DNA of 64,000 bases from Tetradesmus obliquus (taxonomy: Eukaryota; Chlorophyta; Chlorophyceae; Sphaeropleales; Scenedesmaceae): contig CP126195.1 in the NCBI GenBank assembly GCA_030272155.1, positions 1,595,001 through 1,659,000 of the forward strand, in the 5' to 3' direction. The position numbers were made by a program, and so were the translations under genes. The notes under the pieces were generated by a model. The model did not search any database. It was not told where the DNA came from and saw only the letters and a list, made by a program, of their open reading frames with translations. Below are positions 6,290 to 49,276 of the stretch, one piece after another. Each line of letters begins with the position of its first letter. Positions within the stretch are counted from its first letter, which is position 1.

Positions 6290-9200
6290 TTACTCCAGCA
6301 GCGTGCACAGCAGCCTCCAGATGCCGCCGACAGTGACATGCAGCTCCCTCGTGTGCTCAAAAGACTTGCGCTCCTTGCGCTTGCGCCACACGCTGCCCTC
6401 ACTCATCACATCAGCCTCCTGCAGCTGCCTGCCTTGTGCTGCTGCGCGTACACATGCATTCCATGCCTCTCTGCCCAGCACTCCAGGCTTGGTGAAGAGC
6501 TCACCCTGGAAAGCGACCCAGGCTGCAAGCATACAAACAGACAGGCAGCGCAAGCAGAACATGCAGGTGTGACACACAGTTGGCAGCAGAACTGAATGAA
6601 AACCTCGAAAGAAGTGATGGAGTGACTGCATGGGCCCGACCTCACTCTGGAAAGTGACTAAGGCTGCAAGTGCGCAAATCGGCAGCCACCGCAAGAAGAG
6701 CACACAGCACGCGGCACGCAGCAGGGGCTTAGCGGCAGCACTGATTGCATGTATGCAGGCAGCAACTGCCTGCACGTGCTTCAAGTACAAGGCTGGGGGA
6801 TGCCAATCACCCTGTCTCAGGCCATCACTACTGCACACCACAAAGTCGCAATTCAACACACTCTTGTGAGCAGCGAAATCTTTAGAAGCTTGTGGTTCCT
6901 ACCATGGTTTGCTCTGCCAAGGCATTCTGGTTGGCATGCAGTGCGCGGTCCTCTGCTGATCAGGCCAGTACTGACAATACATGAGTATCACTCACCTAGC
7001 TTCTCGCTGTCGTTGCAGTGCACCTCCACCTCAACATCTGCCCCAACCCCGGGACCCCCAAGCCTCCAGCGCTGCTTGCCAGGCTGCAGCTTGCGTGGCT
7101 GCTGCGGGCCATCAGTGCTCAGGTAGGTTGCATACAGCTTTGCTGCTTCCCTTCTGCTGCGATCTGAGAATGACGCAGGGACAGGATCCTGCACCGTGTC
7201 GGTGGGCATGATCGCTGCTGCTGCCGCTCCTGCTGCTGCTACTACTGCTGGTGATGATGGTGGCCGTGCTTCATCCATCTCTGCATCCGGTACCTCTGTT
7301 GACGGCGCTGCTCTTGTTCCTGCTGCTGCCCCTGATGTTGCTGCTGCTGCTGCTGCTGGCAGCGCTGCTGCGTTTTGAGTAGCAGCGCCAATAGAAGTTG
7401 CCTGTAGAAGCAAATTACGGCACAAGGACATGTCATAAACATGGGTAGGTACTGCAGCAGATGCAAGGTTGTGCAGACACTGCAGCAAGATGGAGAGGTA
7501 AAAGGTTGCCTAGGAGCATGCCACCACATTTGAAGGCAGGACCCAGAAGTCACGCAACAACCCGCCGCAATAATGTTGCTGCAAGTGACGTCACATGCAT
7601 GCCATGTCCATGAATAGTCCGTAATCCAACCATTTGCTCTGACGCAGCACAGGTGTGCGGTGTGTGCATTGTGCAGAAACACACACAGCATGGCAGCCTG
7701 TTAAAAATGGGTGCCTGTGGCAGCTAGTATGCAAGCACAGCACAACAGCAACATGATGAGTGGATATCTGTACCCCTGCAAATCTGAAAGCAGAACACCC
7801 TACTTCAATCACAGCTGGCTTACCCGTGCTGTGGGGTGCGTATCTTGCGGTTGCCAGTCCATTGCAGCCGCGAGGTTGCGCGCCAAGCCGCTGGCACCCC
7901 TTGGCACATTGGAGGCTGGTGGGGCCAGAGGAGACACCTGTGCTGCAGCAGCTGCTGCTGCTGCTGCCGCTGCCGCTGCTGCTGCACTGGTAGGGGAAGG
8001 AGCTTGTACTGACCCTGTGCTGGCTGGAGTTGCTGCTGCTGCTGCTGCTGCTGCTGCTTCATCTTCTACGCGCCTGCGCTGCACTGGCCTGTTTTCAGCA
8101 GCATCATCATCACCATCAGCTGCTGCTGCTCCTGCAGCTGCTGCTGCTGCTGCTGAGGCTGCTGCTGAAGCTGTCACCTGCCGGGTGCGAGAACGTGCTG
8201 CGTTGTGTTTCTCGACCTGCGCATACATTGCACACGCATATCATCACAGGTTGAGGTCTCAGGAGCTGCTGCAAGTTTCACACATGCATTATTGGTGGCG
8301 GTTCCCTGCATGTGCAGTCCTGGAGCCTGTGCTGCCTGATGTGCCACCACAGTGTTGTTTGACATGCAATGCTGGCTGAAGCAGTGACTCAATCTTCAGC
8401 CCATGATCACTGTCAATCACCATGCACAGCACTGCTGAACCATCCAGAATCAACACTGGGTGTAACCCCTCACCCTGCGCAGTAGAGAGCGCTTCTGTGC
8501 ATTTGACAGCAGTTTCAAGCTGCTGGGATCTGGCGGCTGCCTGTCGGCTGCTTTTGCATCGCTGGCGCTTCTTGCGTATGCCAGGAAGCCTGTCTCAGAG
8601 AAGGGGATGCCGCAGGCAGCACCGGCAGGCGTGTACACAAAGATGCGCTCCTGCACACAGCAGCCATTACACGCGGTTTTGCAGCACTTGCAGAGGGCGT
8701 ACTTGCACACCTGCCCGCCAGCGGGACGCACACTTCTCAAAGCTTTGGCCACTGGCAAGGCAATCCTGCAGAGGCACCACGCAGGGCTGCTTGCTGCCTT
8801 ACAGTACACTCTAGCTGCGCTGCTCAGCCCACAGAGAGGCCAATTCATATTCTGCTACTGTGCGCTGCACCCTCAACCTGGCTTCTACATTAGGTGTCAT
8901 CCAGTCTCCTGTAAGCAGCATCAAAGATTTGCCCACCTGCCCCATGCCGCATGTCCTGGCCACGACGTGCATCTGCCAGCCCGGCCCCAGCACATCACCC
9001 CCGTACACACGCTGCAGCAGCGGGCGCGTGTCATCCAGCGGCAGCTCCAGCCACTGCAGCTCATGGCAGAATGCCCGCAGAGCAGCCTCAATGGCGGAGA
9101 GGGGCTGCACTGTGAGCAGCTTCTGCAGCTGCCGGGGGTTCAGGAAGCAGCGGCTGGCGGTCGTGCATACTCCAGGGATCTGAGCTAGCAGCACCTATGG

Positions 9201-12200
9201 GCATACATGGCAGGCAGGCAGGCAGACAGAGAGGCAGACAGGCAGGCAGCCACGGAGACGCCACATCATCCTAAGGGCATTGTGTATGCTGAAGCTGCGT
9301 GACAGCTGACCAGCACACAATCAGAAAGGTGGTCTTGGTGGCATGGCACAATTCCAGCATAGCAGGAAACCTGCAGAGCTATCAGCCCGCCATGCACCAA
9401 CCTGCCAGAGCGCGAAACATGCACACTGCAACAGTCCGCGTATGCACCGTGCAGCCTACAACAATCACTGCCTGATCAATGATCGCTGCAAGGTCAGAGC
9501 ATTGCAGGCCCACACAGCACATCTTGCACCCGCCGCCCACCTTCTCCTTGCTCAGCTTCAGTGTGCCCAGTGGCACCAAGCTGCCTCGCTCAAAGGCTGT
9601 GCCATACTCCACAAGCCACTCAGGACCTTGCTCATTGACCACGCGCGCATACACCCTGCTGCTGCTGCTGGTGCTGCTGCTGCCGGCTGCACTGCTTGCC
9701 TGGCTTGCGGCATGTGCTGTGGCGGCGGCTGCCGGTGCGATGTCACTGCCTGTCAGCACCAGCCACTGTCCTGGCTTTACTGGCTTGGGTTGTGTTTTGA
9801 AAGCTGGCCCAGGCAGGCCAGCAGCCACCTGCCAGAGGTAGCTGTAGCGCTGGTCAAACATGGTCAACCTTTGACTGCTGATGTCAGCAAAGCTGCTGTC
9901 ACCGCTGGCAAACACACACAGCAGGTCCAAATGCAGCCCGCTCAGTTGCAGCGGCTGCAATGGCTGCGTGTCGGCAGCAGCGCTGCTGTTTGCTGCTCGC
10001 CTTTGGGTGGCTGCTGCTAGCTGCTGCTGGAGAGCCACTAGGCTGCTTGCCTCGCTCCCTTGCCCTGCTGCTGCTGCTGCTGTTGCACTGGAGCTGCTAG
10101 GTGCGCAGAGAGCGTTCCAGGCAAGCAGGTTGATGACTGCTACATGCCTGCCGGCCACCTCTGCTCCCAAACCTAGCTGCTGCTGCTGCTGCTGCTGCTG
10201 CTGGTTGGCTTCTGGCTTGTCTGCTGCCAGTGCCAGCATCCGGGCTGGAAGCTGAATGCTAGGGCACCTGCCCCTGTCCTGCCAAGCCTCCCAGCCCTCC
10301 TGAATGACAGCATCTGTGATGGTGATGCCTCTGCTGCTGTGAATGGAGTGCAGGTAATGTTGAAAAGATCCCACAACATCTGCAGGCAGCTGCAGCCTGC
10401 TGATCAGCTGCGGCAGCAGTGCCAGGTCGTAGGTGGGGCGGGGTGCGGCGCCATGCGTGCCCCCTAGCTGTGCGCCTGGCCCAGCTGTTGTGTTGGACAG
10501 GCTTGTGGCGGTGCTCTGCACAGGAAGCAGCAACAAACAGGGTGAGGTTGAGCAAGATGTCTTGCATGTCTGCTTGTTTGTTGACAGTGAAGTTTTGCCT
10601 GCGGCACCTGAAGATAGCACTCCTGCATGACCGGCTGACAGGCCAGCTGCCGCAACCTCACTGTGCAGACCTTTGAAAACACTGTGCCTCAGCATGTGAA
10701 CACAACATTGCAGCAGCAGCTACACAGACAAAGATGCGTTGTGGCAACGCAGCAACCGGGGCATCAGGCACCCAGCACCAGGCAACTCACCTCAAACGCC
10801 CTGTCAAACTTACACACCAGCTGGTTGCTGCAGAGCTGCTTAAACGCCCTTGCAGCTGCAGGAAAGCAGCCGCTCTCAGCTGCAGCACGCATGGCAGGCA
10901 GCTGTGCTGCCACCACAGCAGCAGTGTGCATGACAGCGTCCAGCAGGTGTGGCGCAAGCAGTGGCGAGGCAGCCTGAGTCAACAACTCAGCAGCACTTTG
11001 CCCTGAGCCCTGATGGAACAGCTCCACCCTCTCCTGCAGCTGCCGTGTGTTGACAAAGCCAAGCTGCCAGCTGGCCAGCACATCTGCACACACGGCAGCA
11101 GCAGCACTCGGAGCTGCTGCTGCTGCTGCTGCTGTTGATGTGGTTGATGCTGATGCTGCTGCTGGTGCTGCTGCTGCTGATGCCACGCCTGAGGCAGTAG
11201 GAGCTTGCGGTGCAAGCAGCTGCTGCAGTGCTGCATCCAGGCGCTTTGCAGTGTTGAAGCCTCGGCTGCGTTCCAGCTTGGAGCACACCTCACTCTTTAC
11301 CAGCTGCTCTAATCTTGCCTCCAGCTCTCCCTGTGCACTGGCTTGTAGCTTGCTGAGTGCAGAGACTGGCTGCAGCTGCTGCTGCAGCACTGCCAGCAGC
11401 GCCTGCTGCAGCGCCGCAACCATCTTGTTCACACAGAGTGCCTGAAGCTCTGAGAGGCCTGCCAGATCACTGCTGCTCACTGCCAAGCTGTCGGCAAGCT
11501 GCACACCTAGCTCTACAAAGGGAGGCAGCTCAGCAGTCCTGCAGAGCCTCTCTGCAGCAGCCTTGCATGTGAGGTTGTTGCTTTTGCTGCTGCTGCTGCT
11601 GCTGCTGCTGTCCTGCAAGGCTGCCCTCACTAGCTGCAGCTGGCTGTCCACATTCAGGCCGGGTGAGTCGCTCCATGCTTCAGACAGCAGGGCAGCAAAT
11701 ACGCAGGAGTGCAGCGTCACGGGCTGCTGGCTCATATCCTGCACGCAGCAGCAGCAGCAACAGCAGCATGGATCTTTGTGTCACTTGCCAAAAGCGAGTG
11801 ACGTGCTGCTGCTGTTGTTGTTTATTGTGGCAGAATATCTGCAGCTTGCTCACAACCTGCAAGCAGCAGCAGCAGGCAGGGCGATTGAAAGGTTTGTTTG
11901 ACACCTGCAGCAGTCTGGAACCAACGACACAACGCTAGGAACTGGCAATGAAGCTCGGTACTCACTTGCTCAGGCGGGCGGCTAGTGCCTTGGATCATCA
12001 GCTCCCTCAGCCTCTTGATCAGTAAGCAACAGTGACGTGGCAGTGCAAGGCAGCGCATGGCTGCAAGCACAGCAACACACCAGTACGTCGGCAAACCAAT
12101 GCAAAGCATTTGACAACACAGAGCACACAGCAGCGATGCCACCTGCGGCAGTCTTACGATAGGCAAACCACAGCAAATCAGCAAATATCAACAAAAGGTG

Positions 12201-15200
12201 TTGCTCACTTGCCCAGGCGGGCGGCTGATGCCTTGGATCAGCAGCTCCCTCAGCTCCTTGGTCAGTAAGTCACAGTAAAGTGACAAGTGCAAGGCAGCGC
12301 ATGGCTGCAAGCACAGCAATGCCGCAGTGCGTCGGCAAAGCATATAACAGCACACAGCACACCACAGCGACGCAACCTGCCGCAGACTAGAACCAACAGC
12401 GCAACGATAGGCAAAACCACAGCACACCAGCTACTGTCAATCAAGCGTGATACTCACTTGCCCAGGCGGGCGGCTGATGCCTTGGATGAGCAACTCCCTC
12501 AGCTCCTTGATCAAGCCCTTGCGCCCGCCAGACCTCACAAGTACCATTGCAGCAGCAGGATGGTCCAGCAAGCCAAGCAAGCCCTTGGCCCGCAAAGCAG
12601 CAGCCACATCCGGCTGCTGTGCTAGCTCCGGTGCAAACGCCAGCACCGTAGCAGCCACCGCGCCTTCTGGCGTGCAGCGCTGCAGCTGCGGCTGCAGCTG
12701 CTGTAACAGCTCGCCCTGCAGCAGGCGATGGCAGTGGCCGCCAGGAGCTATGGCATTTGACAGCTGCTCAATGCTTGCCACCCAACGCGGCTGTAGCTGC
12801 GTCTGCAACAGCTGCAGCAGCTGCTCTGGATCACCAGCCGCACCCCCTGCTGCTGCTGATGCACTTGCCGCCATGCTGCACAGCTCTGGCACTCTTCTGA
12901 AGACAGCTGTCGCTGCCGCTGCCAGATCCTGCAGCTGCTGCAGCTGCTGAAGCTCTGCAGCTTGTCCCTGCACACTATCTGCCACCTGCTGCAGGAAATC
13001 CTGCAAGCTGGTGTAGCCGCCCTGCTGCTCATCCAGTTTCGGAAAGCCTGGGTGGCTGCCTGATACACAGCGAGGGTACAGCGTGATAACTTGCACGCAG
13101 CTCTCGATGCATGCCTCAATAGCTGCCTCAGTAGCACCCATGCACTGTGGCTGCCAGCGCAGCCGCTGCACTAGCTGACCCAGCAAGTTGCGCTCACCCC
13201 GCTGCTGCCTGTCTTGCAGGACGCGGCATGCCTGCTGCAGGGCAAAGCAAGCAGCACTGAAGTCTGGTGCAGCCGCTGCAGGTATGTCGGGGCTTTCACC
13301 GCGGCTGCAGCGCAGCAGCTGCCGCTCTGCATCATCCTGAGTGATGAGCTGCCCCAGGCAAGCAGCTGCAGCCGCCGTGCGCGCTGCGTCGTATGCTCTG
13401 CGCACTGCTGACAAGGCATCAGCAAACACCTTATCACCAAGCAGCACCAGCGCAATTGGCAGCTGGGCGCTGCTGGCTGCTGCAGGCACCGCCGCACTAG
13501 CAGCAGCAGCAGCAGCGGCGGCAGCAGCTGCAGGTCTGCTGATCTGCCCAACTGTTGCACCTGCAGCACCAGCTGCTGCAGGCACAGGCGCACTAGGGGC
13601 AGCATCAGCTGCAGCAGCAGCAGCAGGTCTGCTGGCTAGGCTTCTAAGCACTGGCGCCAGCAGCATGCTCTTAGCCAGCTGATGCATGTCACCAGCCGAG
13701 GCCTCCCCCTCAGGCGAAGACGCCACCAGAAACAGCGCTGCACTCACAGGCATGAGCCCCTGGGCCTCCAAGTGGCGCAGCTGTGCTGCTGATGTGGTAG
13801 AAGTGCCGCGAGTGTCCATGAGTGACCACTGCATGCCACACTGCTCAGGACTGCCCAGGCTAACTCGGCAGCCCTGCAGTGCTGCACACAGCGGGTTGTA
13901 GGCTGGCTGCAGGAATGATAGGGATAGGCACTTGGCTAGGACGCGCCAGAGCTGCGGGGGCATGGGAGCGGCCTGTTGTGCTGGCCTGTGTGGGGTGGAG
14001 GGAGTGGCGAGTGCACAGGAGAAATGCAGCAGCAGGAGCAGCGCGTATGTGTAAGGGGGACTGATTTGTGCTGGGTACTTGGTGCTGAAGCAAGCGTGGT
14101 AGTTTCACAATATGGATGGGGTGAGTGCACGACAAATTGTGGTTCCCGATAGGCGCCTGGCCCTAGCAATCCTCCAGCTGGAGGCAGATGAGTGACTCAG
14201 CGGTGGAGAGCTGCTGCTGGCACCTTGCTGCAGGATTACTAGGGCCAGGCGCTTGGCGATGACACGCCAGAGCTGTGGGGGCATGGGGGCGGCCTGTTGT
14301 GCTAGCCTGCCGTGCACAGCAGACATGTGCAGTAGCAGGGCAGCGTACATGTGGAAGGGTGATCACTTTATGTTTGGTGTGATGCAAGAACAGGGGTGTA
14401 TGCGCAGTCGGGATAATGAATGTGCACAGCAGGTTTTGTTTGTTGTGCGCCAGAGCTGCGGGGGCATGGGAGCGGCTTGCTGTGCGGGCCTGTGTGGGGT
14501 GATGGGAGTTGCGAGTGCACAGGAGACAAGCAGCAGCAGGAGCAGCGCAGATGTTTGAGAAAGACTGACTTGTGCTTGGTGCTTGGTGCCGAAGCAAGCA
14601 TGGGGTTTGCACAGTATGGAAGGTACAGGTGCACAGCAGCATGTGGTGCGTGATGGACTTGCAAGACACATGAGAGGGACAGCAGTGGCTACTGCTGCTG
14701 CTGCCTTGCCTGCTGAATACAGAGTGCAAGAGCAGGTGCAAGCGCACATGCAGAGCGCGTACACCACACACCCACGCACGCAGCGCCTGAGGTAGCCGCC
14801 GTCCCTTGCAGCCGTATACCCATTGCAGCTCTGCTGCAGAATGCACATGTGCACCCATCCAGCTTCTACACACCAACAGTGCAAGCACACAGCATACCAT
14901 GCATGGTGCATGCTCAACACACAGCATACCATGCCAACAGTACCTTCCCCAGCAGCTGTGGCCCACACCTGTTGGTGTATGTGCAGCCCATCACATCCCG
15001 CAGGCGGCTTGGGAAGTTGACAGGGCCGGGCGACTGCATCATATCTGTGAAGGCCCGCAGCTGCTCTGCAGGCTGAAAGTGCCCCAGAAGCCGCAGTACC
15101 AAGCGCACTGGCTCCTTATGCAGGCTTGGTGCCATCAAATACAGTGTGCAAGTGCAATCATACACGCAAAGTGCATCACACACACAATATCGGTAGCACA

Positions 15201-17926
15201 GAGTCAAAAGCTGGAGCGCACCTGTACGTGTACGTGCAGCCCATCACATCCCGCAGGGCACTTGGAAAAGTTACAGGGCCAGGCAACTGCATCATATGTG
15301 TAAAAGCCCTCAGCTGCTCTGCAGGTTGAAAGTGACCCAGAAGCCGAAGCGCCAAGCGCACAGGCTCCTTGTGAAGGCAGTTTGTTGCATCTGCCATGCT
15401 GACTTGGTCTTCGTCATCGCTGCTGTCGCCTTCGGCAGCAGCAGCAGCAGCAGCCGCGTCCTGCTGCTGGCTGATGCGTCTGCAGATGTCCCGGGCTTTT
15501 GATGCCGCGTCTTGCAGGGCTTGGTATGCACGCATCACAGCCGCAGGGGAGATGTGCGGTAGTGTGACGCTCTCCTCTGGGCCTGAAAATGCGGGGATGA
15601 AAGCATGCGGCAGCAAGTGTACACATACACAACACAGCAGGTGAGGTGGCGTTATGCTCTCCTCTGGGGCTGTGCGACAGGCGCACACACAGGCAGTAAG
15701 ATATGCGCCAGCGGTGAACAACTTGTTCTTGCTTGAAGCAGGACAAAGTGGCAGTGTTAACATGCGGGTAAGAGGCGACGACTGTGCTGTTGGGTTGTTG
15801 GTGTCAGCTGTCCCTGATGAGACACACAGCACAAGCATGCAGCCAGAAATGCACACATCAAGATGGTGCCAGGACCCACATGTAACCCCCCATCTCTCTT
15901 TTGCAGCCCATCTCACCAGGTCCGTACGCCGCTGAGGTGATGGATGTGTGGCCTTCGTTGCCAGTAGCAGCCAGGTAGTCAGCCTTGAGAGGATCAAAGT
16001 CAAGCCTGGCAAGGCCCAGGTGGCGGGGGCCCTCAAGGCCTGCCTGTGCATCCCACTGCGCAACCTGCGCTGTGTCTTGTTGTGCAAAGCCCAGCAGCTC
16101 CGCACCACCAGCAGCTGCTGCTGCATCATCGCTCCATTGCACCACACGGTTGCACTCATCCTACAGGCAGTGACAGGAGAAAGGAACATACTTGCTCTGC
16201 CATTGGAACCCACATGAATGCACATGCTGAGTAATGCTGCACTTCTGGCTAACTGGGTAGCACTGCGGCAGTGCTGTGTGAAGACAACTTTACACAGTCA
16301 AGGCAAGGCTGCGCACCTTCAAGCAAAGCTGGACCAACGAAGCAGATGTCATGGATCATCCCCGGCTCTATTCCGGCAGCTCACCAGTGCCTGCTTGCTG
16401 CAGTCTGGGTCAGCATCCCTGTAGGCCCTGTCACACTGCAGCAGCTGCAGCCAGTTGATGCCGGATGACTCCAGCTGGGCCAGCTGCAGCAGCAGCAGCA
16501 GCAGCAGCAGCCGCAGCAGCAGCAGCCGCAGCAGCAGCAGCAGCAGCAGCAGCCGCAGCAGCAGCAGCAATTGAGGGGATAAGGGATGGCACCTGGGTAT
16601 AAAGCGTGCGCAGCAAGGCTGTGAGCTGCACGATTACCTTGGACAACAGATCCGGGTTGCGCAAGCACTCCTTGCTGCCTGCCTCATAGCAGGTGTTGGA
16701 TTGTGCACTGCTGTACGTAGCACGATCTCGTGCATGCGCTGCAAACAAACCATGCCTGCGCTCATCACACACAGCAATGGCTGGAGCAACTCCGTAATGT
16801 TTTACCTCTTGCTCCATGTAGGCATCTTCATTGTTGCCCCGGGCTGTGTGGTTCCAGTGGCGTATCAGCGCATTGATGGTGGATGACTTGCCTGGCAGGC
16901 GGTGCAGGTGCAGTCGGGGCGCATTGCGCAGTGCAGCGGCAGCTCATTCGTTCAGCAAAGCACATTGTGGTCCTGTGATTTGTCGCATCCCCCCCAGCAC
17001 ACATGCGCAAAATGCAGTATATGTACTACTAGTAGCTCTCCTGTATGCAGCCTGGCAGGGAATTGTTGTGCCTGGGGCCTGGGTGCAAGCTGTGCTGCAT
17101 ACAATGCAGCGCATGTGTGCAAGCGGCTGCATGCATGCCCATTGCCCACAGGGCTTGTCGCATGCAGCTCTGTTGCATGTGGCATGACACGCTACCAGCC
17201 TGTGCATCACAGCCGCATGTGCAAGCAGTCCTGACACGGCATGTGGCACGGCTGTGTGTCATACTGCACCCTCCCACAGTTCGCAGCAACTATGCAAGGC
17301 ACACAGTGCAGAGGCCATGCCAGCTAGCGTAATGTGTGGAGAAGCAATACACCGTGTGCAAGGGCTCCTTGCTCTCCCCTGAGCAGCATGTTGTGAAAAG
17401 GTCACTCACCGCTGCCCTGAAAGCCTATGACCGCTACGCCTGGCAGCGCTGCAGTCCTGTGGGACGTGCTGCTGATACCAGTGCCAGCCACCTGCAACAC
17501 ACAGCAGGCATAACACTTGAAAAACAGCAATGAAGGATGTTATGTGACGGTTTTGGGCATTCACGCACGTGCTGAAGCAATGCCAGTGCTGCTGTTGGCA
17601 CACGATGCCTGTGCCTGCAGTGCTGTACAGGCCTGTACCACCAATGGCAGCCTGCGTAGTTCAACAGTCAGCTGCAGTAGCACATGTGCCTGTACAGCAC
17701 ATGTGCTACTGCAGCTGACTGTTGAACTACGCAGGCTGCCATTTCAGTGCAGGATCTGCCGCCAGCGGCCTTGTCTGAAGTGAGGTGGGTCTGAAAAAGC
17801 AACATAAGCGAAGCAACGGCGAATGCTCACGCTGTGCGCGTTGCGACGAAGGGCTTCAACAGCTTGGCCTCCGTTGCTGGTCCCGTAGCTCCGCATCCAC
17901 CGATGCTTACAAGCAAGCTGTTTCAA
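6290..17926 (-). CDS. Giant dynamin-superfamily (SLIP-GC-like) GTPase
   Basis: Large P-loop GTPase of about 2,100 residues. Main exons, 5' to 3': 17831-17926 (Met 17926 or 17896), 17410-17491, 16806-16891, 16638-16682, 16385-16483, 15917-16160, 15222-15582, optional 14969-15124, 12458-13985, optional 12209-12256 and 11966-12013, 10791-11738, 9541-10515, 8833-9194, 8474-8765, 7824-8216, 6996-7401, 6290-6522. Phases agree at every main junction. The G1 motif GFQGSGKSSTIN is created across a phase-1 intron. A G2-like segment LAATGNEGHTSIT and a G3 motif LMDTRG (usually DxPG) follow; no canonical TKxD G4 is visible. The C-terminal half has a Tudor-like stretch (RVYARVVNEQGPEWLVEY), a Cys cluster (CKYALCKCCKTACNGCC), basic nuclear-localisation-like patches and a novel C-terminus. 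Closest known family is nuclear GTPase SLIP-GC/dynamin-like; a nuclear role is inferred. One long gene is favoured because all phases match, but a split into two genes near 10.7 kb cannot be excluded. Confidence 0.7.
11966..12505 (-). repeat. Triplicated 16-codon exon end plus intron in the GTPase gene
   Basis: The end of the large G3 exon (12458-12505, ELRELLIQGISRPPGQ followed by donor GTGAGT) is repeated downstream at 12209-12256 and 11966-12013, at spacings of 249 and 243 bp. Each copy is exactly 48 nt, has an AAG acceptor-like end before it and a GTGAGY donor after it, and is phase 0 on both sides. The intervening intron sequence is also recognisably repeated (shared GTGCAAGGCAGCGCATGGCT-type core). 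One, two or three copies could be spliced in without breaking the frame. Confidence 0.8.
13930..14489 (-). repeat. Three copies of an acceptor/exon start (MPPQLW) in the GTPase gene
   Basis: The start of the G3-containing exon (acceptor at 13985; PAQQAAPMPPQLWRV) recurs at 14306 (LAQQAAPMPPQLWRV) and 14489 (PAQQAAPMPPQLWRT). The polypyrimidine/acceptor region is included in each unit. Only the 13985 copy leads into the GTPase G3 strand. The others diverge after 15-30 codons and would shift frame if used, so they look like decoy or decaying exons. Confidence 0.7.
14969..15377 (-). repeat. Duplicated 52-codon exon end in the GTPase gene
   Basis: The stretch LHKEPVRLALRLLGHFQPAE to DVMGCTYTYR at the end of exon 15222-15582 is repeated at 14969-15124 with several substitutions (LRLVLR, DMMQSPGPVNF, CTYTNR). 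Both copies end with AG/GTG donors in phase 2. Using an AAG acceptor at 15125, the second copy adds 156 nt in frame. Confidence 0.75.
15555..15669 (-). repeat. Duplicated acceptor (PEES) in the GTPase gene
   Basis: The beginning of exon 15222-15582 (CAG/GCCCAGAGGAGAGC) has a near copy 87 bp upstream with its own CACAG acceptor at 15669 (CCCCAGAGGAGAGC). The duplicated coding part is only about ten codons (PEESVTLPH versus PEESITPPH) and runs into a CACCTG/donor-like sequence. Confidence 0.55.
16486..16572. repeat. Imperfect CAG/CCG tract before a GTPase acceptor
   Basis: About 87 bp of CAG with CCG interruptions. On the minus strand it becomes (CTG)n directly ahead of the CAG acceptor of exon 16385-16483. 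It therefore occupies the position of the polypyrimidine tract and is probably intronic rather than coding. Confidence 0.7.
17643..17743. repeat. Perfect 47-bp inverted repeat with 7-nt loop
   Basis: Arms 17643-17689 and 17697-17743 are exact reverse complements, separated by the 7-nt loop CTGTACA (17690-17696). The structure lies inside the first intron (17492-17830) of the GTPase gene. The arms are not CAG repeats; they are complex sequence (AATGGCAGCCTGCGTAGTTC at the left end). Transcribed from either strand it would fold into a near-ideal dsRNA stem. Confidence 0.95.
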
Positions 17927-26200: not shown

Positions 26201-26268
26201 GCTTCTTGTTCTTGGCCCCTGGGATGGGCACAGCACCCTTGCAGATGATCCAGTTGAGCGCCACCTGC

Positions 26269-26305
<37 letters not shown>

Positions 26306-26572: not shown

Positions 26573-26638
<66 letters not shown>

Positions 26639-38284: not shown

Positions 38285-39101
38285 CTACACCGGCTCCAGC
38301 TTCAGCAGCAGCCCGAAGTGGTCGCTGGGCAGCACCGGCAACTCCTTGCTGCCGCCATTCCTGAACCTGTGGCTGTACGTGACGCCAGGCAGCGGCTGGT
38401 TGCCCACCAGCTCAATGCTGCCCAGCCGCCAGTCACGCAGCTTGCACATGATCCTGCAAGCAGCGTTGCAAAGCGAAACATGGGAGTAGTGCGAGAATTG
38501 CCGAAACGACGCTGACAATTTGCGCAGCATAATCAGGCGCTTTGTTGCTGCTGCAAGCCCAGCGACCCTATGCTGCCCTGCCTCCAGCCAGCCTTCCTTG
38601 TTTCAGCGAAGCCGGCCCGGCACATTAATCAGTTCAATCGCCAAACACCACAGATAGCACGCAGCAAGCATGCAGCAGCAAGAACGCAGCAGCAAGAACG
38701 CAGCAGCACACACTTTTCTTCTCTAGCCATGCATGCTCTTGAAGTCCACTGCCGCCCTCGCCTGTTCGGGCGCACATGCTGACCACCTCGCAATACCACA
38801 AGCGTGCACGCAGCCAGCTTACTCAAGCAAGCAACATGAAGCAGCCGTGTGCTGCTGCCTCCTCCCACCTGTCCAGGCACAGCGGCGGCGTGCCCACGCT
38901 TTATCACCGCACAACACTACAAGCGCGCAAGCAGCCAGCCTAGTCAAGCAAGCAACATAAACGAGCCTCGTGCCGCTGCCCCCATCACCTGTCCAAGCGC
39001 AGTGCTGGTGTGCCCTTGAAGGGCAGCATGGGGTTGCTCTTAGCGTCATACGTCGCGCCAGGCTTGCCAGGCTGTAGCGTGGCCCACGCATCCACCCAGC
39101 T

Positions 39102-40273: not shown

Positions 40274-43136
40274 TGTTGCAGCCCACCTGTGGCGGGATGG
40301 GGCTCTCCAGGTGTGATGTGGCCACCAGCACCTGCTGCCCTCCGATGCTTGCGCTGACACTGCGCATGCCACGCCCTGCGAAGCCAGACAGTGCAGGACC
40401 AGCAGATAGCAACACAACATTGTTGCAAGAGCGGCAATCTGCTCCCTGGCCAGATGGCCCAGAGCCAGCTAGAGCGGCTGTGTAGCGCAACTGCTTGCTG
40501 CAAAGCACAGAGGCAGCTGGGTGGCTGTAAACATCAGCTGGGTGCGTACACTCCGCAATCGCACACCAACTCGTCATCAGAAAGTGCCACACAGATCCCA
40601 CGTAGACATGAGACAGATGCTGAAAATAGTTCGCAACACTTTCTGAGCACGCTGGGCGGCTCCACACCACTGCTGGTTGCATAAGCACATCACCACTAAC
40701 AGCACACTCGCATTTCAATCCATTCCGCATGTGCTAGCAGCGCAGCACGCATGTATGAAGGTTGTGCCCACCCACCCATGACAAAGTTGTCAAATTCACG
40801 ATGTGAAAACGCCGCCTGGCCCAGGCTGGGATCTGCGCTGCGCTTGACCAGCAGCATAACACATGCAAAACTACTACTTAAACAAATTAAAAGAAAGTGC
40901 TGCCAGTGCCCAGTAAGAGCCCACGCACCCATGACAGAGTTGCCGAATTCACGGTGTGAAAACGCCGCCTGGCCCAGGCTGGGGTCTGCGCTGCGCTTGA
41001 CCAGCAGCAGTGTAAAGTAGGCCATGTCTCGGGGGTGGGGGCTGGGGACGTACTGCTGCCACCACTCCATGTTGCACAGTATTTCTAGGATCAGCGGCGT
41101 CACCTCCTGCACACAAAGACAGCATAGGGCAGTGCAGATGAAGTGAGCTATGCAACCGCAGCAGAGGACAGCAGGAATGCAGTAAGGTAGGTGGCGGAGG
41201 TGGGGGCTGGGGACATACTGCTGCCACCACTCCAGTAGCACATGATCTGTAGGATCAGCGGCGTCACCTCCTGCATGTACAGCAGAGTTCAGCACTTTCA
41301 AATAGCAGTTTGTTACAGGACAGCACAAGTACAATAGGTCACGCTGCGGGGGTGGGGGCTGGGGACGTAGTGCTGCCACCACTCCATGTTACAGAGGATC
41401 TCAAGAATAAGTGGCGTAATCTCCTGCACAAGCAACACGAGACAGCACGTTCAATTCGAAAGTTGAAAAGCAGTTGAAAAAGAAAGCAGTCATATCTCGG
41501 CACAAATGAAGTAAGCCACGTCGCGGGGGTGGGGCCTAGGGACACACTGCTGCCACCACTCCATGTTACAGAGTATCTGTAGGATGAGCGGCGTCACCTC
41601 CTGCAGGTACAGCAGAGTTCAGCACTTTCAAATAGCAGTTCGTTCCGGGACAGCACAAGTACAATAGGTCATGCTGCGGGGGTGGGGGCTGGGGACGCAC
41701 TGCTGCACCACTCCATGTTGCAGAGGAGTGCTGGAAGCACTGGCGGTACCTCCTGGTCAAACTGACTCAACATAGAGCGGCGACTGCCGACCATAAACAT
41801 TCCTCCAGGCACATGCCTTGCGTTGCTGCAGCCGCATACCAGCACTGCCATGTTCCGAGTACTGAAGCAAAGGAGGCGAAAAAGCGGCAACTGCCACCTG
41901 CAGGCAGATCAAGGTGGGCGAGCCAGCCCTGCGCACAATGTCACCATGATTTTCTGATTGCGGAAAGTGACAACACGAATTGATTCACCAACAAACAGCT
42001 CACCTGTAGGCAGATGAAGGTGGGCAGGCCAGCCCTGCGGATGATGTCCCCGAGCCCTGTCATGCGCTCCAGCACCGCCACCTCCTCCTTAAACCTGAGC
42101 AGCAGGCAGACAAGCAACCAGGATTTAGGCAGATGAGGCAGAATGCTAGCCGACACTCAGGCAGGCCAGCAGCCAGCCCTGTCATGCGCTCCAGCACAGC
42201 CACCTCCTCCTTGAACCTGAGCAGCAGGCAGGGTATAGGCAGGCAGCCAGGGCTTGGGCAGATGCGGTAAGACTACAGGCCAGGGATTTGGCAGGCAAGC
42301 ATGAGAAAGCAGCTTGCTCCAGCAGAACCAGCTGTTCCTGCATGCACGCAGACGGGGGCTGCTGAGCATAAGCCCTACTGCTGTTGCTGGATCATTGCAC
42401 AGTACACTGCAGATTCTGCCGGAAGTTGGATGCCAGCAGTAACAGCTTGTCCCATACCATCTATGGCTGTTCTGCTCGTGATGCATGCACAGCAGCACCC
42501 CAACGCACCATACATTGTAGGTGAGCAAGCTGATGCTGATGCTGCTGCTGCCAGCGCCAGCAGATGCTGCAGCTGCGGAGCTGCCTGCTGCTGGCTTGGC
42601 AGCAGCGGGCCTTGCAGGGGGGCTGCGGGAACGCCGCCTGCGCGAGCTGCCTGCTGCTGCTGCTGCTGCTGCTGGTGTGGATGCAGGCTCGCTGCCTGTA
42701 GGCAGAACATGGTAGTGATTGAAGGAAGCAGGCACAAACATACGTGAAAGAAAACAGAGCTTGTGCAGAGCATCAGTAGACTTCTGAATGTTTGGCTTTG
42801 CGGCATCATCCGGCTTTGTGCTGGCAGGAGCAGATTGTTTTGTGGTGTATTGAAGGCAGAGGTCATGCAAAAGGGAACAAGAACCACAAGCAGCGCTTGA
42901 CGCGGCAAAGAGTCTGTGTCTGCAGTATTGACAACAAGCTTTTGCACCACCCCCAGGTACAGTCCAGCAGCAGATGGGCTCACCCCCTGCTGCATCCTCC
43001 TGCTGCTTGGCTCCTTCATCCGGCTGCTGCTGCTGCTGCTGCTGCTGTCTGCGCATGCGGGCCTCATGTAGTGCCCGCAGATCAGAGTTGTTGAAGCCAG
43101 TACCAGCAGCAGCAGCAGCAGCACTGCCACTCCCGC

Positions 43137-43185
<49 letters not shown>

Positions 43186-43560
43186 ATCTGCATCAGGCGC
43201 AGCCGTGTCTGGCGGGTTGAGCTTCATTCGCTTGACTGCCCCCCGCTCAGCAGCATCATCATCGTCGTCTTCATCTGTCATGTTCGTGCCTCCGCCAGTA
43301 GCTGCTGCTGCTGCTGCTGCTCTGGCTGCTGCAGAGCCAGCTGCCTTGCCCCGTGCAAAGTCCATGATGCGCCTGCGTGCTTGCTGCTCCTCTTCCTCTG
43401 CTGCTGCTGCTGCTGCTGCTTCTTGTGGTGATGCTGGTGCTGGTGCTGCTGCTGTAGCTGCATCCTGCTCCCTTGATGATGCCGCTGCTGGCATCCTCAG
43501 TTGCACGTGAGGGGCGTCATCGTCCGAGTCTGACAGCGTGAGATCCACCACATCACCCAT
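38285..43560 (-). CDS. TDP2: Tyrosyl-DNA phosphodiesterase 2
   Basis: Mg2+-dependent endonuclease/exonuclease/phosphatase-fold enzyme that, in the known family, removes topoisomerase II adducts from DNA 5' ends. Nine exons: 42984-43560, 42509-42695, 42004-42094, 40929-41106, 40287-40375, 39942-40029, 39615-39666, 38989-39099, 38285-38453; about 430 residues, phases consistent. The N-terminus MGDVVDLTLSDSDDD resembles a SUMO-interacting motif, then poly-Ala and an Arg-rich linker. Catalytic signatures in order: LLTYNVW, GLPTFICLQEVTP, MEWWQQYV, VMGRGMRS, VLVATSHLESP, YSKERQQQMAEAL, FAGDMNWDD, ATYDAKSNPML and LPSDHFGLLLKLEP. All active-site motifs of TDP2 (Asn of TYN, Glu of LQE, Asp of GDMNW, His of SDH) are present, so the enzyme should be active. 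Nuclear location is inferred from family and basic patches. The main start is 43560; an in-frame Met further upstream (43746) is less likely. Confidence 0.92.
38757..39040 (-). repeat. Three copies of exon end TPALRLDR in TDP2
   Basis: The end of exon 38989-39099 (GTPALRLDR, donor GTGATG) recurs at 38869 (GTPPLCLDR, donor GTGGGA) and in decayed form near 38757, about 120 and 112 bp apart. The intervening GCTTGCTTGA-rich intron is also copied. Confidence 0.7.
39103..39144. repeat. (CAG)n ahead of a TDP2 acceptor
   Basis: About 14 CAG units on the plus strand, read as (CTG)n on the transcribed strand, immediately upstream of the acceptor of exon 38989-39099. It supplies the pyrimidine-rich side of the 3' splice site. 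Confidence 0.75.
40776..41010 (-). repeat. Two copies of exon end AFSHREFGNSVMG in TDP2
   Basis: The end of exon 40929-41106 (LLVKRSADPSLGQAAFSHRE, then GTGCGT donor) recurs 153 bp downstream, ending at 40776 (REFDNFVMG, donor GTGGGT). Both end ATG G in phase 1, so either donor joins the next exon in frame. Confidence 0.8.
41020..41752 (-). repeat. Five copies of acceptor and exon start EVTPLILEILCNMEWW in TDP2
   Basis: Acceptors occur at 41106 (the copy leading to the full exon), 41270, 41423, 41600 and 41752. Each is followed by the same block as far as QQYVPSPHPR. The block includes the catalytic Glu codon. The most upstream copy has lost one base (CTGCACCACT for CTGCCACCACT), causing a frameshift after MEW. 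Spacings are 152-177 bp. Confidence 0.85.
41897..42222 (-). repeat. Three partial copies of TDP2 exon 3
   Basis: The intact exon is 42004-42094 (FKEEVAVLERMTGLGDIIRR, then AGLPTFICLQ). A copy of its first half with a CTCAG acceptor lies upstream near 42220, and a copy of its second half (DIVRRAGSPTLICLQ) lies downstream near 41897. The array thus carries the acceptor side once more and the donor side once more. Confidence 0.75.
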
Positions 43561-44108: not shown

Positions 44109-47100
44109 CAGCAGTCACAAGCCTGGCCTGATCCATATTGCTTTCAACCAGGACAACAGCTGCATATGCATTGGAACCTCCGAGGGCATTAGGATCTACC
44201 ACATAGAAACGCACCAAATATGTTACCGAGAAGATATAGGAGCTGTAGGGTGAGATGGTAGCTGTGCATGGCAGCACAACAGCAGAACACCAGCACTATC
44301 CCGTCCGCCCGCCCATGCCTGCTCTGCTGCATCCTGCCAAACGTGTTGACATGACTGAGCATGTTGCTTGCAGCTGTGCGTATGCAGTAATGGGGTAAAG
44401 TATGCCTAGCCCACGCTGGTGTTACAAGATTGTAGCCAGCTGTTGTGGCAGCAACAGGGCCTTGACGCTTTCGTGCATGTATGCATGCACCATGCCGCTT
44501 GCCTCTTGCAGGATAGCAGAGATGCTGTTCTGCACCAGCTTGCTGGCGTATGTAGGAGCAGGTGGGTCCAATAAGCTATAACACAAACGCACTACTTTAC
44601 GTGCAAGCATGTGCCGAAGCGTTGAAAGCAGCTGCCACCAGCAGAATCCTATATTGTGCCTTGGGACTTTCGGGCTACACTGCAACATGCCTGCTGTGCT
44701 TGTTGGAGGGGCAGTTCATGCACAGTTTTCATCGGGCACCAGCGCAGCGTTCCTGCAAGAGCTGACGGTTACAATGATGGCAGGCCCTGCGGCTGCCAAC
44801 GTCCGTAGCAGCAACTGCAGCTGCTGGGCGGCAAGGCAAATTGCAACCTGACACTGCTGCTAGTGCTGCAGGTGACCAGCCTTCCCTGACGCCACGGCGG
44901 CTGTCGGTGATCAACACGAGCAGCAGCAGCGTCATACGGGACCTGTCATTCAGCAGCAGCGTGCTGGCAGTGCGGCTCAATAAGCAGCGGTGAGGCACGG
45001 TGGAATGCAGTGAGGCTTGTTGGATTGCAGCAGTATGTTGCGCATGCAATTGGACAGCGGCGGCATCATCAAAGGAGCAGGAGGCACTCTTTGAGTATTA
45101 CTGGTGCTGCTGTCATTTGGTGCTGGTTGGCTGCGTGCACGTGCTGCGCCACCATTGTCATGACGCCGTGAAATCATGCCGTATGTTTGACTGATGTTTG
45201 ACTCATCTTCAACTTACTACTGGTCTGCAGGCTAGTGGCGGTGCTGGATGGCCGCGTGCACGTGCACGCGCTGCAGACCCCGGCGCAGCAACACTGCTGA
45301 ACGGGCTTCAACTTGTGTTTGACTCATGTTTGACTTACGTTTGACTTTCTGCTGGCCTGCAGGCTAGTGGCGGTGCTGGATGGCCGCGTGCACGTGCACG
45401 CGCTGCAGACCCTCGCACAGCAACACTGCTGAACGGGCTTCAACTTGTGTTTGACTAGTTGCTTGACTTATGTTTGACTTTCTGCTGGTCTGCAGGCTTG
45501 TAGCGGTGCTGGATGGCCGCGTGCACGTGCATGCGCTGCAGACCACTGTCACAGTGACACCATGCCTTGGGCAATGTTTGATTCATGTTTGACTTTCTGC
45601 TTGACTGTCTGCTGGTCTGCAGGCTTGTGGCAGTGCTGGATGGCCCGTGCATGTGCATGCGCTGCAGACCACTGTCATAATGTCACCATGGCTTGGGCAG
45701 TGTTTGACTCATGTTTGACTTTCTGCTGGTCTGCAGGTTAGTGGCGGTGCTTGATGGCCGCGTGCACGTGCACGCGCTGCACACCACTGTCATAGCCACA
45801 CCATGCCTTGGGCAATGTTTGACTCATGTTTGACTTTCTGCTTGACTGTCTGCTGGTCTGCAGGCTTGTAGCAGTGCTGGATGGCCGCGTGCATGTGCAT
45901 GCGCTGCAAACCCTGGCGCAGCTACGCATCATAGAGACGCCGCCAAACCCCAAGGGCTTAGCAGCGCTGACACCTTGCAGCGAGCCCTGCTGCTACCTGG
46001 CGCTTCCTGCAAGTGCAGCTGCTGGTGTGCTGCGGGTGTATGACTTGCTGGTAGATGGCGGCCATGTGGTGTGTGAAGTGCAGGTGAGCAGTAGGAACAA
46101 CAATGGACAGCTGATTGAAATGCTTTGACAGCTGGTAGCGCTGGCGGCAGGACAGGTGGCATGGCGGTTATGTGTGTGAAGTGCAGGTGAGCAGTAGGAA
46201 CGACAACCGCAACTGCTTGATGTTCAGAGAGAGCTGTGGGTGTCTGACCTGCTGTAGGATGGCGGTCTTGTGGTGTGTGAAGTGCATGTGAGCTGAATGC
46301 CTGCACCACCACTTACAACTAAGGATGCATGCACCACCAGTTACATCATGTGCCTGCATCGCCAGTTATGACGAATCAGTGGCTGCCGCAGGGCAGGTGA
46401 CTGAGGTGCAGCATGCTGTGGACTGCTGTTCTGTCTGAAGTACGTTTCCTCCGCAGCTCTGCACCCTGCACATGTCCTCAACTGCAGATGCCACTGCTGA
46501 GGCTCACCTTGCCGCCCGCCTGATGATTGTTGAACTGTGCTCTCAACTCAACTGCACAGGCTCACAAGGCACCGCTAGCAGCCATGGCGTGGAGCCATGA
46601 TGGAGCCTTCCTAGCCACTGCCTCAAGCACAGGCACAGTCATACGGTGAGATGACAAACACGGCTGCTTCTATGTACTGATGCACACAGCTGTGGTTGTG
46701 CAATATGGCTGTTGTGTGTCAATATATGTGGCTGCTTTAGGCTGAACCCTTCCCAGCAACACTGCGGTTCATGTAATGAGAGAGGATAGTTACATGTGGG
46801 TCCTGGCACCATCTTCAATGTTCAATGGTGTTAGCCACAACAGGTTGAACACATGGTCTGAGACCAGAAAAAAAAGAGTGAGCACCGTAAAACACAATGC
46901 ACACCCTTGAACGTCGAGTTTCATGTTATATCCAGGGAGTCTCAATATTATTAATCTCCCTGCGGTTGCATGTAATGTGTTGTACTGAAAGCCCCTGTTG
47001 TGTACTGCCGGCCGCTGAGGTGTAGTATGCCTGTCTATGACTTGTGCTGTCTCCACCTGATATGTACTGCTGTCACTGCTTTGCACTGCCTGCAGGGTCT

Positions 47101-48487
47101 ACTCCATGCCACATGCCTCAAAAGCGTACAGCTTCAGGCGCGGCACCTACCCAGCAGCAGTACACTGCCTAGCCTTCAGCCCAGAAGGCTACCAGCCGCC
47201 GCTGCTGGCAGCAGCAAGCAGCCACGGCACAATCCACCTGTTCCGGCTGGAGCAGCCGCACCGGTCAGCAGCTGCGGCTGCTGCGAGTGCTGCCGCAGGG
47301 CTGCTCTCAGCGGTGATCAACTTTGCTGTCACAGACATGGTGAGAGGGAGACGCGGCAATATAAGCAGCAACTAACGCAGCATGTGATGCAGCGCGATCG
47401 CGAGGCACCTCTGCGCCGGTAGCATCCCACGTTGCGCTCATCGTTGATCTGCTGAGCAATATATCCTATTTGTGCAACCCCCCTTGAACATTTATTTATT
47501 GTTGTTGCGCTCCTAACAGCTGCGTGCACCAGACATCTCATCCAGTGTTGTCCATACCCTTTCACGCTTTTACCACCAAACTTTCCGAACCCACACTTCC
47601 GCAGGTTGAGCCGCAGCAAAGCATTGCCAACATCAGGCTGCCATGTGCGGGGTTGCCGGCCGGCAATCAAGCGTCGCTCATGTAACGAACCGCCAGCATC
47701 CATCATTGTTGTTATCTTTGGTTTGTCAAACAGCTTGGACAGTGCTTTGGTGTTTTCAAACGTCCCAAGCCACGCGCTTTTGACTTGCCGTCGACACTCA
47801 TGATGTGCTTTTCAAACCCTGCATCGCTGTGCTGCCCCAGGTTGAGCCGCAGCGCAGCATCGCCAACATCAGGCTGCCATGTGCAGGGCTGCCAGCCATC
47901 TGTGCGCTGCAGCACCCTACTGGCAGCAGCGGCAACGCCTTTGAGGGTGGAGGAGGCGCCTCCTCGCTGTCTGGCCAGAGTGATGTGGCAACACTGCCAG
48001 AGGATGCCGACGAGGTGCGAGCGTGCGTGGTTGCAGTTGAACCGCATCATCATTTGCTCTGCCGACTGCTGAATGATTGACCTTGCTCAAAGGGTTTTGT
48101 GCCTGAGCTGTTTGGCAGATGGTGTGAGGCGACGTGCTAGTTGTTGGTGTAGTTTGCACACACAAAGCAAGCTGTTGGTGGAGGAGGTGCGTCCTCGCTG
48201 TCTGGCCAGAGTGACGTGGCCACAATGTCGGAGGATATGACGAGGTGTGTTCGCAATGCATCGAGAAAGCAGCACGTGCTGTTGAGTCAAACATACTACA
48301 TCTTGATGGAGAGACAACGTGGTAATGTGTTTGCTTGCGCCTGCTCGGCGCGACCGCACCAGCCATGCAGGCTGTCAGTGCTGTAGAATTTGGCGACATT
48401 CAAGCCAGCCGCTGACTGTGGCACAACATGATCTCTTGTGGCTGTTAGCTTACCAGGCACTTGGCCAAACCTTTGCGCCTGGCTGCC

Positions 48488-48528: not shown

Positions 48529-48673
48529 ACAGGTGACTCTTGTGGTGGCCACTGCTGGCGGGCTGCTGTACGAGTATGCAGTGGAGCAGCTGAGCAGTGC
48601 TGCGGGGCCCAAGGCTAGCCTGGGTGGGGAGTGGACGCTGCTGGGCAGTACTGGCCTGGCCGCGGGGGCATGA
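44109..48673 (+). CDS. ATG18: ATG18/WIPI-type PROPPIN (autophagy WD-repeat protein), N-terminal exon missing
   Basis: Seven-bladed beta-propeller that binds PI3P on autophagic membranes. Supported exons: 44109-44249, 44512-44561, 44872-44989, 45864-46083, 46560-46645, 47096-47339, 47841-48014, 48533-48673; about 390 residues without the unresolved first exon. Diagnostic segments: FNQDNSCICIGTSEGIRIYH, GIAEMLFCTSLLAYVG, VIRDLSFSSSVLAVRLNKQ, RIIETPPNPKGLAAL and AHKAPLAAMAWSHDGAFLAT. The PI3P-binding signature FRRG is present in exon 47096-47339 (KAYSFRRGTYPAAVHCLAFS), followed by LLAAASSHGTIHLFRL. All junctions keep phase. The propeller closes in the last exon (VTLVVATAGGLLYEYAVE). The gene is divergent from TDP2. 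Four of its exons sit in tandem duplication arrays, and the terminal exon exists in five copies, the other four lying downstream of the stop used here. Confidence 0.88.
45220..45920 (+). repeat. Six tandem acceptors/exon starts (LVAVLDGRVHVHALQT) in ATG18
   Basis: The unit TCTGCAGGCTTGTGGCGGTG, then the codons for LDGRVHVHALQT, occurs six times, with acceptors at about 45232, 45363, 45497, 45624, 45738 and 45864, roughly 115-135 bp apart. Only the last copy continues into LAQLRIIETPPNPKG. The others run into stops or lose frame soon after. Introns between copies carry repeated TGTTTGACTCATGTTTGACT motifs. Confidence 0.9.
46060..46290 (+). repeat. Three copies of exon end VVCEVQ in ATG18
   Basis: The donor region of exon 45864-46083 (GTGTGTGAAGTGCAG/GTGAGC) recurs near 46186 and 46287 (GAAGTGCATGTGAGC), each preceded by a GATGGCGG-like stretch. 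The third copy has CAT instead of CAG before GT. Confidence 0.7.
47600..48250 (+). repeat. Duplicated start and end of one ATG18 exon
   Basis: Exon 47841-48014 has a copy of its acceptor and start (GTTGAGCCGCAGCAAAGCAT, at 47606) 237 bp upstream, and a copy of its end (GGTGCGTCCTCGCTGTCTGG to GACGAG/GTG, ending near 48244) about 230 bp downstream. Both copies keep consensus splice ends. Confidence 0.75.
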
Positions 48674-49276
48674 TGACGCACGACATCTCCTGACTTGGCT
48701 TGCAGTAATCGCGCTGTCCCATATGGAGCAGCTGAGCAGTGTTGCGGGGCCCAAAGCTAGCCTGGGCGGGGATCGGACGCTGCTGGGCAGCACTGGGCTG
48801 GCTGCAGGGGCATGATAACACACGGCATCACACTTGGTTTGCATGCAAATGTGCAGCAAATGCGCCAGTTCACATCGAGCAGCTGAGCAGCGCTGCTGGC
48901 CCCAAGGCCAGCCTGGGCGGAGAGTGGACGCTGCTGGGCAGTACTGGGCTGGCTGCAGGGGCGTGATGCAGCTTGCTACTGTTTTGCTGTGCCCTGCTAG
49001 CAGTTGCTCTGGCCACTGCTGGCGGGCTGCTGTACGAGTATGTGGTTGCGCAGCTTGCAGTGCTGGGGGGGCCCAAGGCTAGCCTGGGCGGGGAGTTGAC
49101 GCTGCTGGGCAGTGCTGGCCTGGCTGCTGGAGCATGATGAGACACGGCATCACGATTGGCTTGCAGCAAATGCGCCAGCCCGTGTCAAGCAGCTGAGGAG
49201 TGCTGGGGGTCCTAAAGCTAGCCTGGACGGGGAGTGGACGCTGCTGGGCAGTACTGGCCTGGCTGCAGGGGCATGA
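48533..49276 (+). repeat. Five tandem copies of the ATG18 terminal exon
   Basis: The block EQLSSAAGPKASLGGEWTLL, then GSTGLAAGA and a TGA stop, occurs with stops at 48671, 48814, 48964, 49134 and 49274, 140-170 bp apart. The first and fourth copies retain the longer exon start (ATAGGLLYEY or its equivalent); the fourth reads LLYEYVVAQLAVLGGPKASL. The first TGTAA on the plus strand appears only at about 49393, beyond the whole array, so a transcript may contain all copies. Confidence 0.85.

Follow-up and report, generated by a model that had tools for sequence, protein, structure and literature searches.

How are spare copies of exon ends made and kept within a genome? The question is raised by a 64,000-bp stretch of the Tetradesmus obliquus genome (contig CP126195.1, positions 1,595,001 to 1,659,000; hereafter the window), whose genes carry short tandem arrays, many of them spanning exon-intron junctions. 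Self-BLAST of the window identified 26 tandem clusters from 11,923 to 49,277 (Table 1), and the arrays in the genes of this interval contain 2 to about 6 copies each. An earlier note on this DNA had counted about 24 arrays at 6,290-49,276; the number stands but the left limit does not, as neither Tandem Repeats Finder nor self-BLAST detected a junction-type array at 6,290-11,922. Copy pairs in the window clusters are 67-99% identical, mostly 75-95%, and also contain indels; thus the arrays are not exact assembly stutter, as had been argued. Tandem Repeats Finder, which requires greater similarity between copies, recovers 7 of the 26 places. Junction-spanning tandem duplication is already known; the present case is marked by its genome scale and by the partial constraint on the spare copies.

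Position of the copies at exon ends

Exons were defined as codon-usage segments, by a score trained on homology-recognised exons and not based on complementary DNA (cDNA). These segments were used in place of gene models because the ab initio models were doubtful: with three gene finders unsupervised training drifted to tiny exons or tracked CAG tracts, and a fourth, guided by codon scores, still called numerous questionable small exons. The codon-usage score yields plausible proteins. The segments total 76 kb of the 264 kb formed by the window and a sample of 20 stretches of 10 kb (L009-L028), taken at round-number positions with every one of the 17 contigs of the 104.66-Mb genome represented, and 70 of 89 arrays overlap a segment. 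Four sampled stretches in which transposons or satellites were considered to predominate (L010, L014, L016 and L027) were excluded from the exon-level and genic array counts, and the genic counts also exclude arrays longer than 1600 bp or with a period above 350. For 235 segments outside the transposon-rich stretches, the 1.5 kb on either side was searched for local copies by Smith-Waterman alignment, which gave 167 local matches in real flanks versus 0 in shuffled flanks. Removal of 20 segments that are themselves copies left 215 segments, 56 of them with a copy, and 111 matches.

The copies display a clear polarity with respect to the exon. Upstream copies contain the exon's 5' end in 34 of 45 instances (7.4 expected) and downstream copies its 3' end in 56 of 66 (11.1 expected), while copies of a whole exon account for 3 of the 111 matches. 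A copy at the matching edge is found for 44 of the 215 coding segments, or a fifth. When the 67 genic arrays are classified by a strict rule and compared with random placement of single units, 44 are junction arrays (17.2 expected), 22 have no exon copy (34.9 expected) and a single array is confined to an exon (14.9 expected). The polarity and the scarcity of exon-only arrays are firm results, and the latter supports the earlier view that these duplications favour exon-intron boundaries over exon interiors. Junctions are probably also preferred to intron interiors, although this difference may be inflated by the better conservation, and hence detectability, of exon parts. The units had also been said to hold a splice site almost always; in the window the strict rule, which asks for an exon-edge copy, finds one in 18 of the 26 clusters, and a lenient rule that asks only that the array cross an exon edge is satisfied by 21 of the 24 genic arrays. 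Reading of the DNA adds two arrays, at 46,029-46,293 and 26,236-26,742, to the strict junction set.

Arrays are spread over the genome, contrary to the proposal of a local process: 62 were found in 15 of the 20 sampled stretches (200 kb), transposon-like and satellite arrays included, at a density of 3.1 per 10 kb versus 4.2 in the window. Extrapolation from the 67 genic arrays in 264 kb gives an estimate on the order of 10,000 or more genic arrays genome-wide. In the sample, arrays occupy ~20% of the non-exon DNA of gene bodies, a fraction that includes unrecognised exons and flanks. Genic periods in the window and sample range between 58 and 270 bp and look bimodal, with 32 of the 67 at 100-140 bp, 12 at 223-270 bp and 1 at 184-222 bp; clustering in these two ranges calls for a cause. 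Near-identical arrays are few (4 of 67 at 97% or more). The four excluded stretches, which are transposon- or satellite-like, contain long arrays, for example L027 1-3959, with a smallest lag of 274 bp and 95% identity in the best pair.

Constraint on the extra copies and choice of the working copy

The most unusual property of the extra copies, which the earlier note had missed, is that on average they behave as if under coding-type constraint. In 57 arrays with 63 extra copies, a set from which two arrays were removed by hand (L010 7107 and L025 3505), the extra copies differ from the working exon by 167 non-synonymous (N) and 216 synonymous (S) changes and 1 stop, whereas base-matched shuffles of the same substitutions gave 268.8, 114.2 and 10.2, respectively. 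The corresponding omega is 0.33 (bootstrap 0.25-0.41). A smaller set was restricted to identified genes (aldo/keto reductase, ATG18, NRDE2, ketoacyl synthase, helicase, flavin oxidoreductase and a UBA protein) and consists of 15 hand-chosen coding segments with 19 exon ends, taking the nearest copy of each; three of these segments have weak Pfam support (window 36283-36435, L022 1320-1469 and L012 8747-8959) and several were included only for lying in the aldo/keto reductase gene or beside ATG18 exons. Here N is 55, S is 73 and omega is 0.32, with binomial P values of 0.0014 against 0.55 and 0.007 against 0.5 that treat differences within one array as independent. Changes private to the extra copies in this set number 38 N and 38 S. 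By our reasoning, a dead copy compared with a fully constrained one should give an omega not much below 0.5, and both 0.33 and 0.32 are lower. CpG mutability was considered as a cause of the low omega and rejected, as it had little effect (0.42 to 0.44).

Splice dinucleotides and exon parts are also better preserved than their surroundings. Eighteen of the 111 copies lie away from the matching exon edge and were excluded from the edge-copy, splice-site and identified-gene tests; splice sites could be scored in 80 of the remaining 93 edge copies, and 76 of these keep the dinucleotide (AG in 31 of 32, GT in 45 of 48). Mismatch is 0.026 at the splice dinucleotide, 0.114 at offsets 2-5 and 0.16-0.22 from offset 6 inwards, and indel columns per 100 number 0.97 in exon parts versus 8.30 elsewhere. 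For example, the first two copies of the aldo/keto reductase donor array at 27219..27581 show 1 difference in 67 exon columns but 13 in 65 intron columns, and in the terminal-exon array of the same gene (25341..26228) the exon part is visibly better conserved than the flank. A frame-free test was positive, although diluted, with a mean non-synonymous fraction in the best frame of 0.494, below all 200 shuffles; in a test of mismatch spacing, adjacent mismatches dominate.

Which copy is in use can be judged best for the D1 protease gene, in which a two-copy acceptor array precedes an exon. The exons of this gene, spliced in silico, match PDB 1fc7, a structure from Scenedesmus obliquus, at 354 of 356 residues, and the 1fc7 residues VNVARMLVD agree with the downstream, exon-proximal copy and not with the upstream one. 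Judged from this alignment, splicing of the D1 protease goes to the last acceptor copy alone, the extra copy is intronic and the protein is unchanged. In ATG18, the last acceptor copy continues into an exon that matches WIPI2 chains in a single stretch. Use of the last acceptor or the first donor is what a junction duplication must entail if the protein is to be kept.

The earlier note had seen in the copies raw material for cassette exons. Such use is unsupported, since a second splice site does not occur more often at the far joint of an extra copy than at exon positions drawn at random: the best acceptor score exceeds 4 at 28% of joints versus 45% of random positions, and for donors the figures are 6% and 15%. 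Read-through in frame to the exon does not exceed chance (open in 11 of 51 cases, 15.6 expected), and the lags show no bias toward multiples of three (18, 13 and 20). Together with single-copy use in the D1 protease gene, these results make direct use of the extra copies unlikely as a general rule.

Origin and retention of the spare copies

The explanation that we prefer, and to which as a whole we assign a probability of about 0.45, is junction-spanning tandem duplication with retention of the spare copies through sequence exchange with the working copy. Units mostly of 100-270 bp that span an exon-intron junction would be duplicated in tandem, repeatedly and throughout the genes of this alga. 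The copy contiguous with the remainder of the exon, that is, the last acceptor or the first donor, would remain in use, and the extra copies would sit in the intron, leave with it at splicing and make it longer. Duplications internal to exons are almost absent, presumably because they would change the protein. Spare and working copies would keep exchanging sequence by gene conversion or unequal crossing-over, and a badly mutated spare would then be a hazard, as exchange or contraction of the array could bring it into use and break the gene. Alleles that work in other lineages may be captured into the array as an alternative or additional route. We infer exchange because direct use is unlikely by the joint and read-through tests, yet the copies keep their coding sense; its direct trace is faint, and is seen in three curated arrays as site pairs that fit no single tree (20 of 36 in ATG18, 1 of 1 and 5 of 6). 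If the constraint on intron-resident copies is confirmed, it would mean that recombination can bring DNA outside the messenger RNA (mRNA) under coding selection. A stronger form of the proposal, in which continual exchange keeps a genome-wide stock of thousands of spare exon ends both coding- and splice-competent, seems doubtful to us; if true, purifying selection would act on DNA that is normally outside mRNA.

A number of results weigh against the preferred explanation. The tree conflicts in ATG18 fall to 2 of 10 within columns that are safely exon, there are few sites in the other two arrays, and repeated mutation can mimic such conflict; this recount led us to lower our probability from 0.5 to 0.45. 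When all 93 edge copies are taken together, omega rises to 0.42, and the 22 copies of greatest divergence give 0.63; of the 59 gaps, 55 shift the frame, and stops number 9 versus 25.3 expected. Private changes in a larger set that includes unidentified exons (N 128, S 77) are closer to neutral, and copies with the least-diverged intron side gave omega values of 0.62-0.98. When copies were split post hoc by rising intron divergence, omega was 0.10, 0.26 and 0.33 for identified exons (4, 9 and 9 copies) and 0.80, 0.38 and 0.41 for unidentified ones; the unidentified exons with least intron divergence are probably miscalled, because their divergence is greater in the supposed exon than in the intron. 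The spare copy of the D1 protease looks nearly unconstrained, with 4 non-synonymous and 3 synonymous differences, and the exons behind omega are codon-usage segments rather than cDNA-based ones. The preference for junctions over intron interiors, which the earlier note had also implied, holds by most counts and is weaker when whole arrays are shifted rigidly: by the lenient rule, which gives each array several chances of touching a junction, 53 arrays are of the junction type versus 43.6 expected (P 0.009), a modest excess. The same null model gives 5.1 exon-only arrays against the 1 found (P 0.027) and 18.2 non-exon arrays against 13 (P 0.09).

Several of these results would be expected if tandem duplications arose anywhere and the exonic ones were purged, leaving those at junctions and in introns to persist as dead DNA that makes the introns longer. 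Such a neutral origin would account for the polarity and the near lack of exon-only arrays with no special mechanism, and it agrees with the modest excess left by the rigid-shift null, with the frameshifts and occasional stops and with the nearly neutral D1 spare copy. We consider it unlikely all the same, since it predicts an omega of about 0.5 or more rather than the 0.33 and 0.32 obtained, does not account for the retention of splice dinucleotides, and would place about a third of the 66 arrays that are not exon-only at junctions (17.2 to 34.9), where 44 are found, a difference to which detectability may add. Unequal crossing-over between diverged haplotypes offers another source of constrained differences: it would set an allele that had worked elsewhere beside the resident copy, so that copies would be born different, mostly at synonymous sites, and decay thereafter. 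The increase of omega with intron divergence in identified genes and the paucity of nearly identical arrays are in keeping with such allele capture, as are the first codons of the ATG18 array, where differences shared between copies are synonymous by eye. It would need a silent diversity that we estimate at roughly 10% or more, and the only strain comparison at hand, the 2 of 356 residues at which the D1 protease differs from 1fc7, suggests a few per cent; as a full account allele capture strikes us as improbable.

The retained AG and GT and the coding constraint could also reflect use of the extra copies by a subset of transcripts, whether as alternative acceptor, donor or terminal exon. The terminal copies at 25352-26228 (- strand), in the aldo/keto reductase, and at 48542-49270 (+ strand) retain both frame and stop codon, which makes them candidates for alternative last exons on the strength of their reading frames. 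As a general explanation this is quite improbable given the joints that lack a second splice site, read-through below the expected number, lags with no preference for multiples of three and the single copy employed by the D1 protease. Finally, the exons are codon-usage segments of which some are probably wrong, which would fit an artefact of assembly or annotation; such an origin of the arrays is scarcely credible, as most copies differ by 5-25% with indels and the same pattern is seen in exons checked by protein family or structure.

Known systems and features of the window

Mutually exclusive tandem exons, in which whole exons are duplicated with both splice sites, resemble the algal arrays in having tandem coding copies inside one gene. 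In the alga, however, the unit is one exon end with one splice site, and whole-exon copies are rare (3 of 111). Minisatellites and genic variable-number tandem repeats are likewise tandem and imperfect, with possible exchange between copies; by contrast, the algal units examined each carry one exon end, straddle a splice site and show coding constraint on average. The nearest published case that we found is the potato RdRp intron, in which a tandem duplication of intron-exon structure, containing a putative branch site, a polypyrimidine tract and a 3' splice site, made a new intron and inserted exon sequence (PMC4974935). That was one duplication, whereas in the alga existing introns contain junction copies of many exon ends, frequently several for the same end. 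Inspection of the ATG18 unit by eye showed no AGGT in its exon part. Introners, intron-generating transposable elements reported chiefly from lineages that evolve fast, green algae among them (PMC9860276), are similar in placing many intron-linked repeats across a genome; unlike these dispersed elements, the algal copies are local and carry sequence of the exon beside them. With two genic queries from the window no dispersed family emerged: they matched only themselves and their local copies, plus one 52-bp match on C13, and homeologous or dispersed copies as a source were rejected for these two queries.

Our literature search, judged by titles and abstract openings and with subscription papers mostly out of reach, found no description of such arrays, and the words intron, exon and duplication are absent from the main text of a Scenedesmus obliquus genome paper (PMC7590803). 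Relatives in other sequence collections were limited to one poor bacterial match (L035, not used), with none in viral contigs. Among five green algae, T. obliquus has the longest mean introns, 462 bp versus 230-302 bp, in a published table (PMC5966456), and the junction arrays may bear on this length. Single junction duplications have been used to argue for the origin of introns and of alternative splice sites; a genome with a copy at a fifth of the coding segments examined would turn that argument into a countable process.

Four of the six genes named in the earlier note were recognised: the aldo/keto reductase, ATG18, a SET-type Rubisco-LSMT gene, whose domain (PF09273) lies in the open reading frame directly downstream of the array at 21339..21638, and, weakly, NRDE2. 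The GTPase and TDP2 were not, as no Pfam match to either was obtained in the 20 stop-to-stop frames tried. The repeat at 43138..43464 is probably low-complexity sequence, since its differences are all non-synonymous.

Table 1. Tandem arrays of the window. Periods and lags in bp; N and S, non-synonymous and synonymous differences between copies
Position	Strand	Feature	Period or lags	Remarks
11923..12513	-	Donor-side array, end of coding segment 12467-13495 + donor (GCAAGTGAGT)	243	2 extra copies
13476..13634	-	2-copy array, upstream edge of coding segment 12467-13495	96	Strict rule: no edge copy
13903..14623	.	Array without recognised exon part	183/321/504
14966..15378	-	138-bp coding segment, 2 copies	253	S 15, N 6
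21339..21638	+	Donor-side array, exon end ...YAYAIQ + GTGAGCAG	125
23332..24632	.	Long degenerate array without recognised exon part	106-1045	67-85% identity
25341..26228	-	Aldo/keto reductase terminal-exon array: 3' part of last exon + stop codon + 3' flank	about 250	4 copies
26236..26742	-	Copies of start of aldo/keto reductase terminal exon (LNW.ICKG), with CTG tracts	130-436	Junction by reading; fails strict rule
27219..27581	-	Aldo/keto reductase donor array	136	3 copies, first = exon
28259..28438	-	Aldo/keto reductase donor-side array	126	N 0, S 3
28714..28915	-	Aldo/keto reductase donor-side array	143	N 3, S 2
28996..29212	-	Aldo/keto reductase acceptor-side array	142	N 0, S 5
33439..33801	-	Donor-side array	260
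34493..34795	-	Acceptor-side array	114	2 extra copies
35934..36343	-	NRDE2-like gene donor array	from 77	3 extra copies; N 2, S 10 over all three
38784..39015	-	2-copy array adjoining coding segment 39012-39095	121	Strict rule: no edge copy
40766..41009	-	Donor-side array	153
41012..41755	-	Acceptor-side array, same exon as 40766..41009 (VQEVTPLILEIL...)	165/317 and more	4 extra copies
41895..42051	-	Array at downstream edge of exon 42013-42105	106	Strict rule: no edge copy
42053..42267	-	Acceptor-side array of exon 42013-42105 (LLLRFKEEVAVLERMTGL)	122
43138..43464	.	57-bp repeat overlapping coding segment, CTG tracts	270	N 9, S 0
45119..45925	+	ATG18 acceptor array: CTGCAG + exon start (RLVAVLDGRVHVHALQT) repeated		Last copy continues into WIPI2-matching exon
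46029..46293	+	ATG18 donor array: exon end GTGTGTGAAGTGCAG + GTGAGCAGTAGGA repeated	106/204	Junction by reading; fails strict rule
47596..47897	+	Acceptor-side array	236	ATG18 by position only; N 1, S 7
47946..48247	+	Donor-side array	231	ATG18 by position only; N 2, S 5
48546..49277	+	Coding stretch with stop codon (EQLSSAAGPKASLGGEWTLLGSTGLAAGA*)	about 142	5 copies; ATG18 3' end by position; no Pfam match

A TTTGAC-like motif is frequent by eye, though uncounted, in the intron part of units (e.g. 45184-45850 and 34493-34795), and our guess is that it could be a branch-point sequence. CAG/CTG/GCA trinucleotide tracts are very numerous across the whole window, and a perfect GCTAG pentamer is repeated 12.4 times at 53916-53977. 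In the last 15 kb the same self-BLAST gave only near-identical repeats, at 57-59 kb; these direct repeats (56588-59347) are 117-462 bp long, 98.5-99.8% identical and spaced 571 bp to 2.6 kb apart, unlike the junction arrays, and look like a young intergenic or mobile repeat. A long inverted repeat pair, 49721-52607 and 60854-63709, is about 77-91% identical in pieces and probably represents two divergent, facing copies of one gene.

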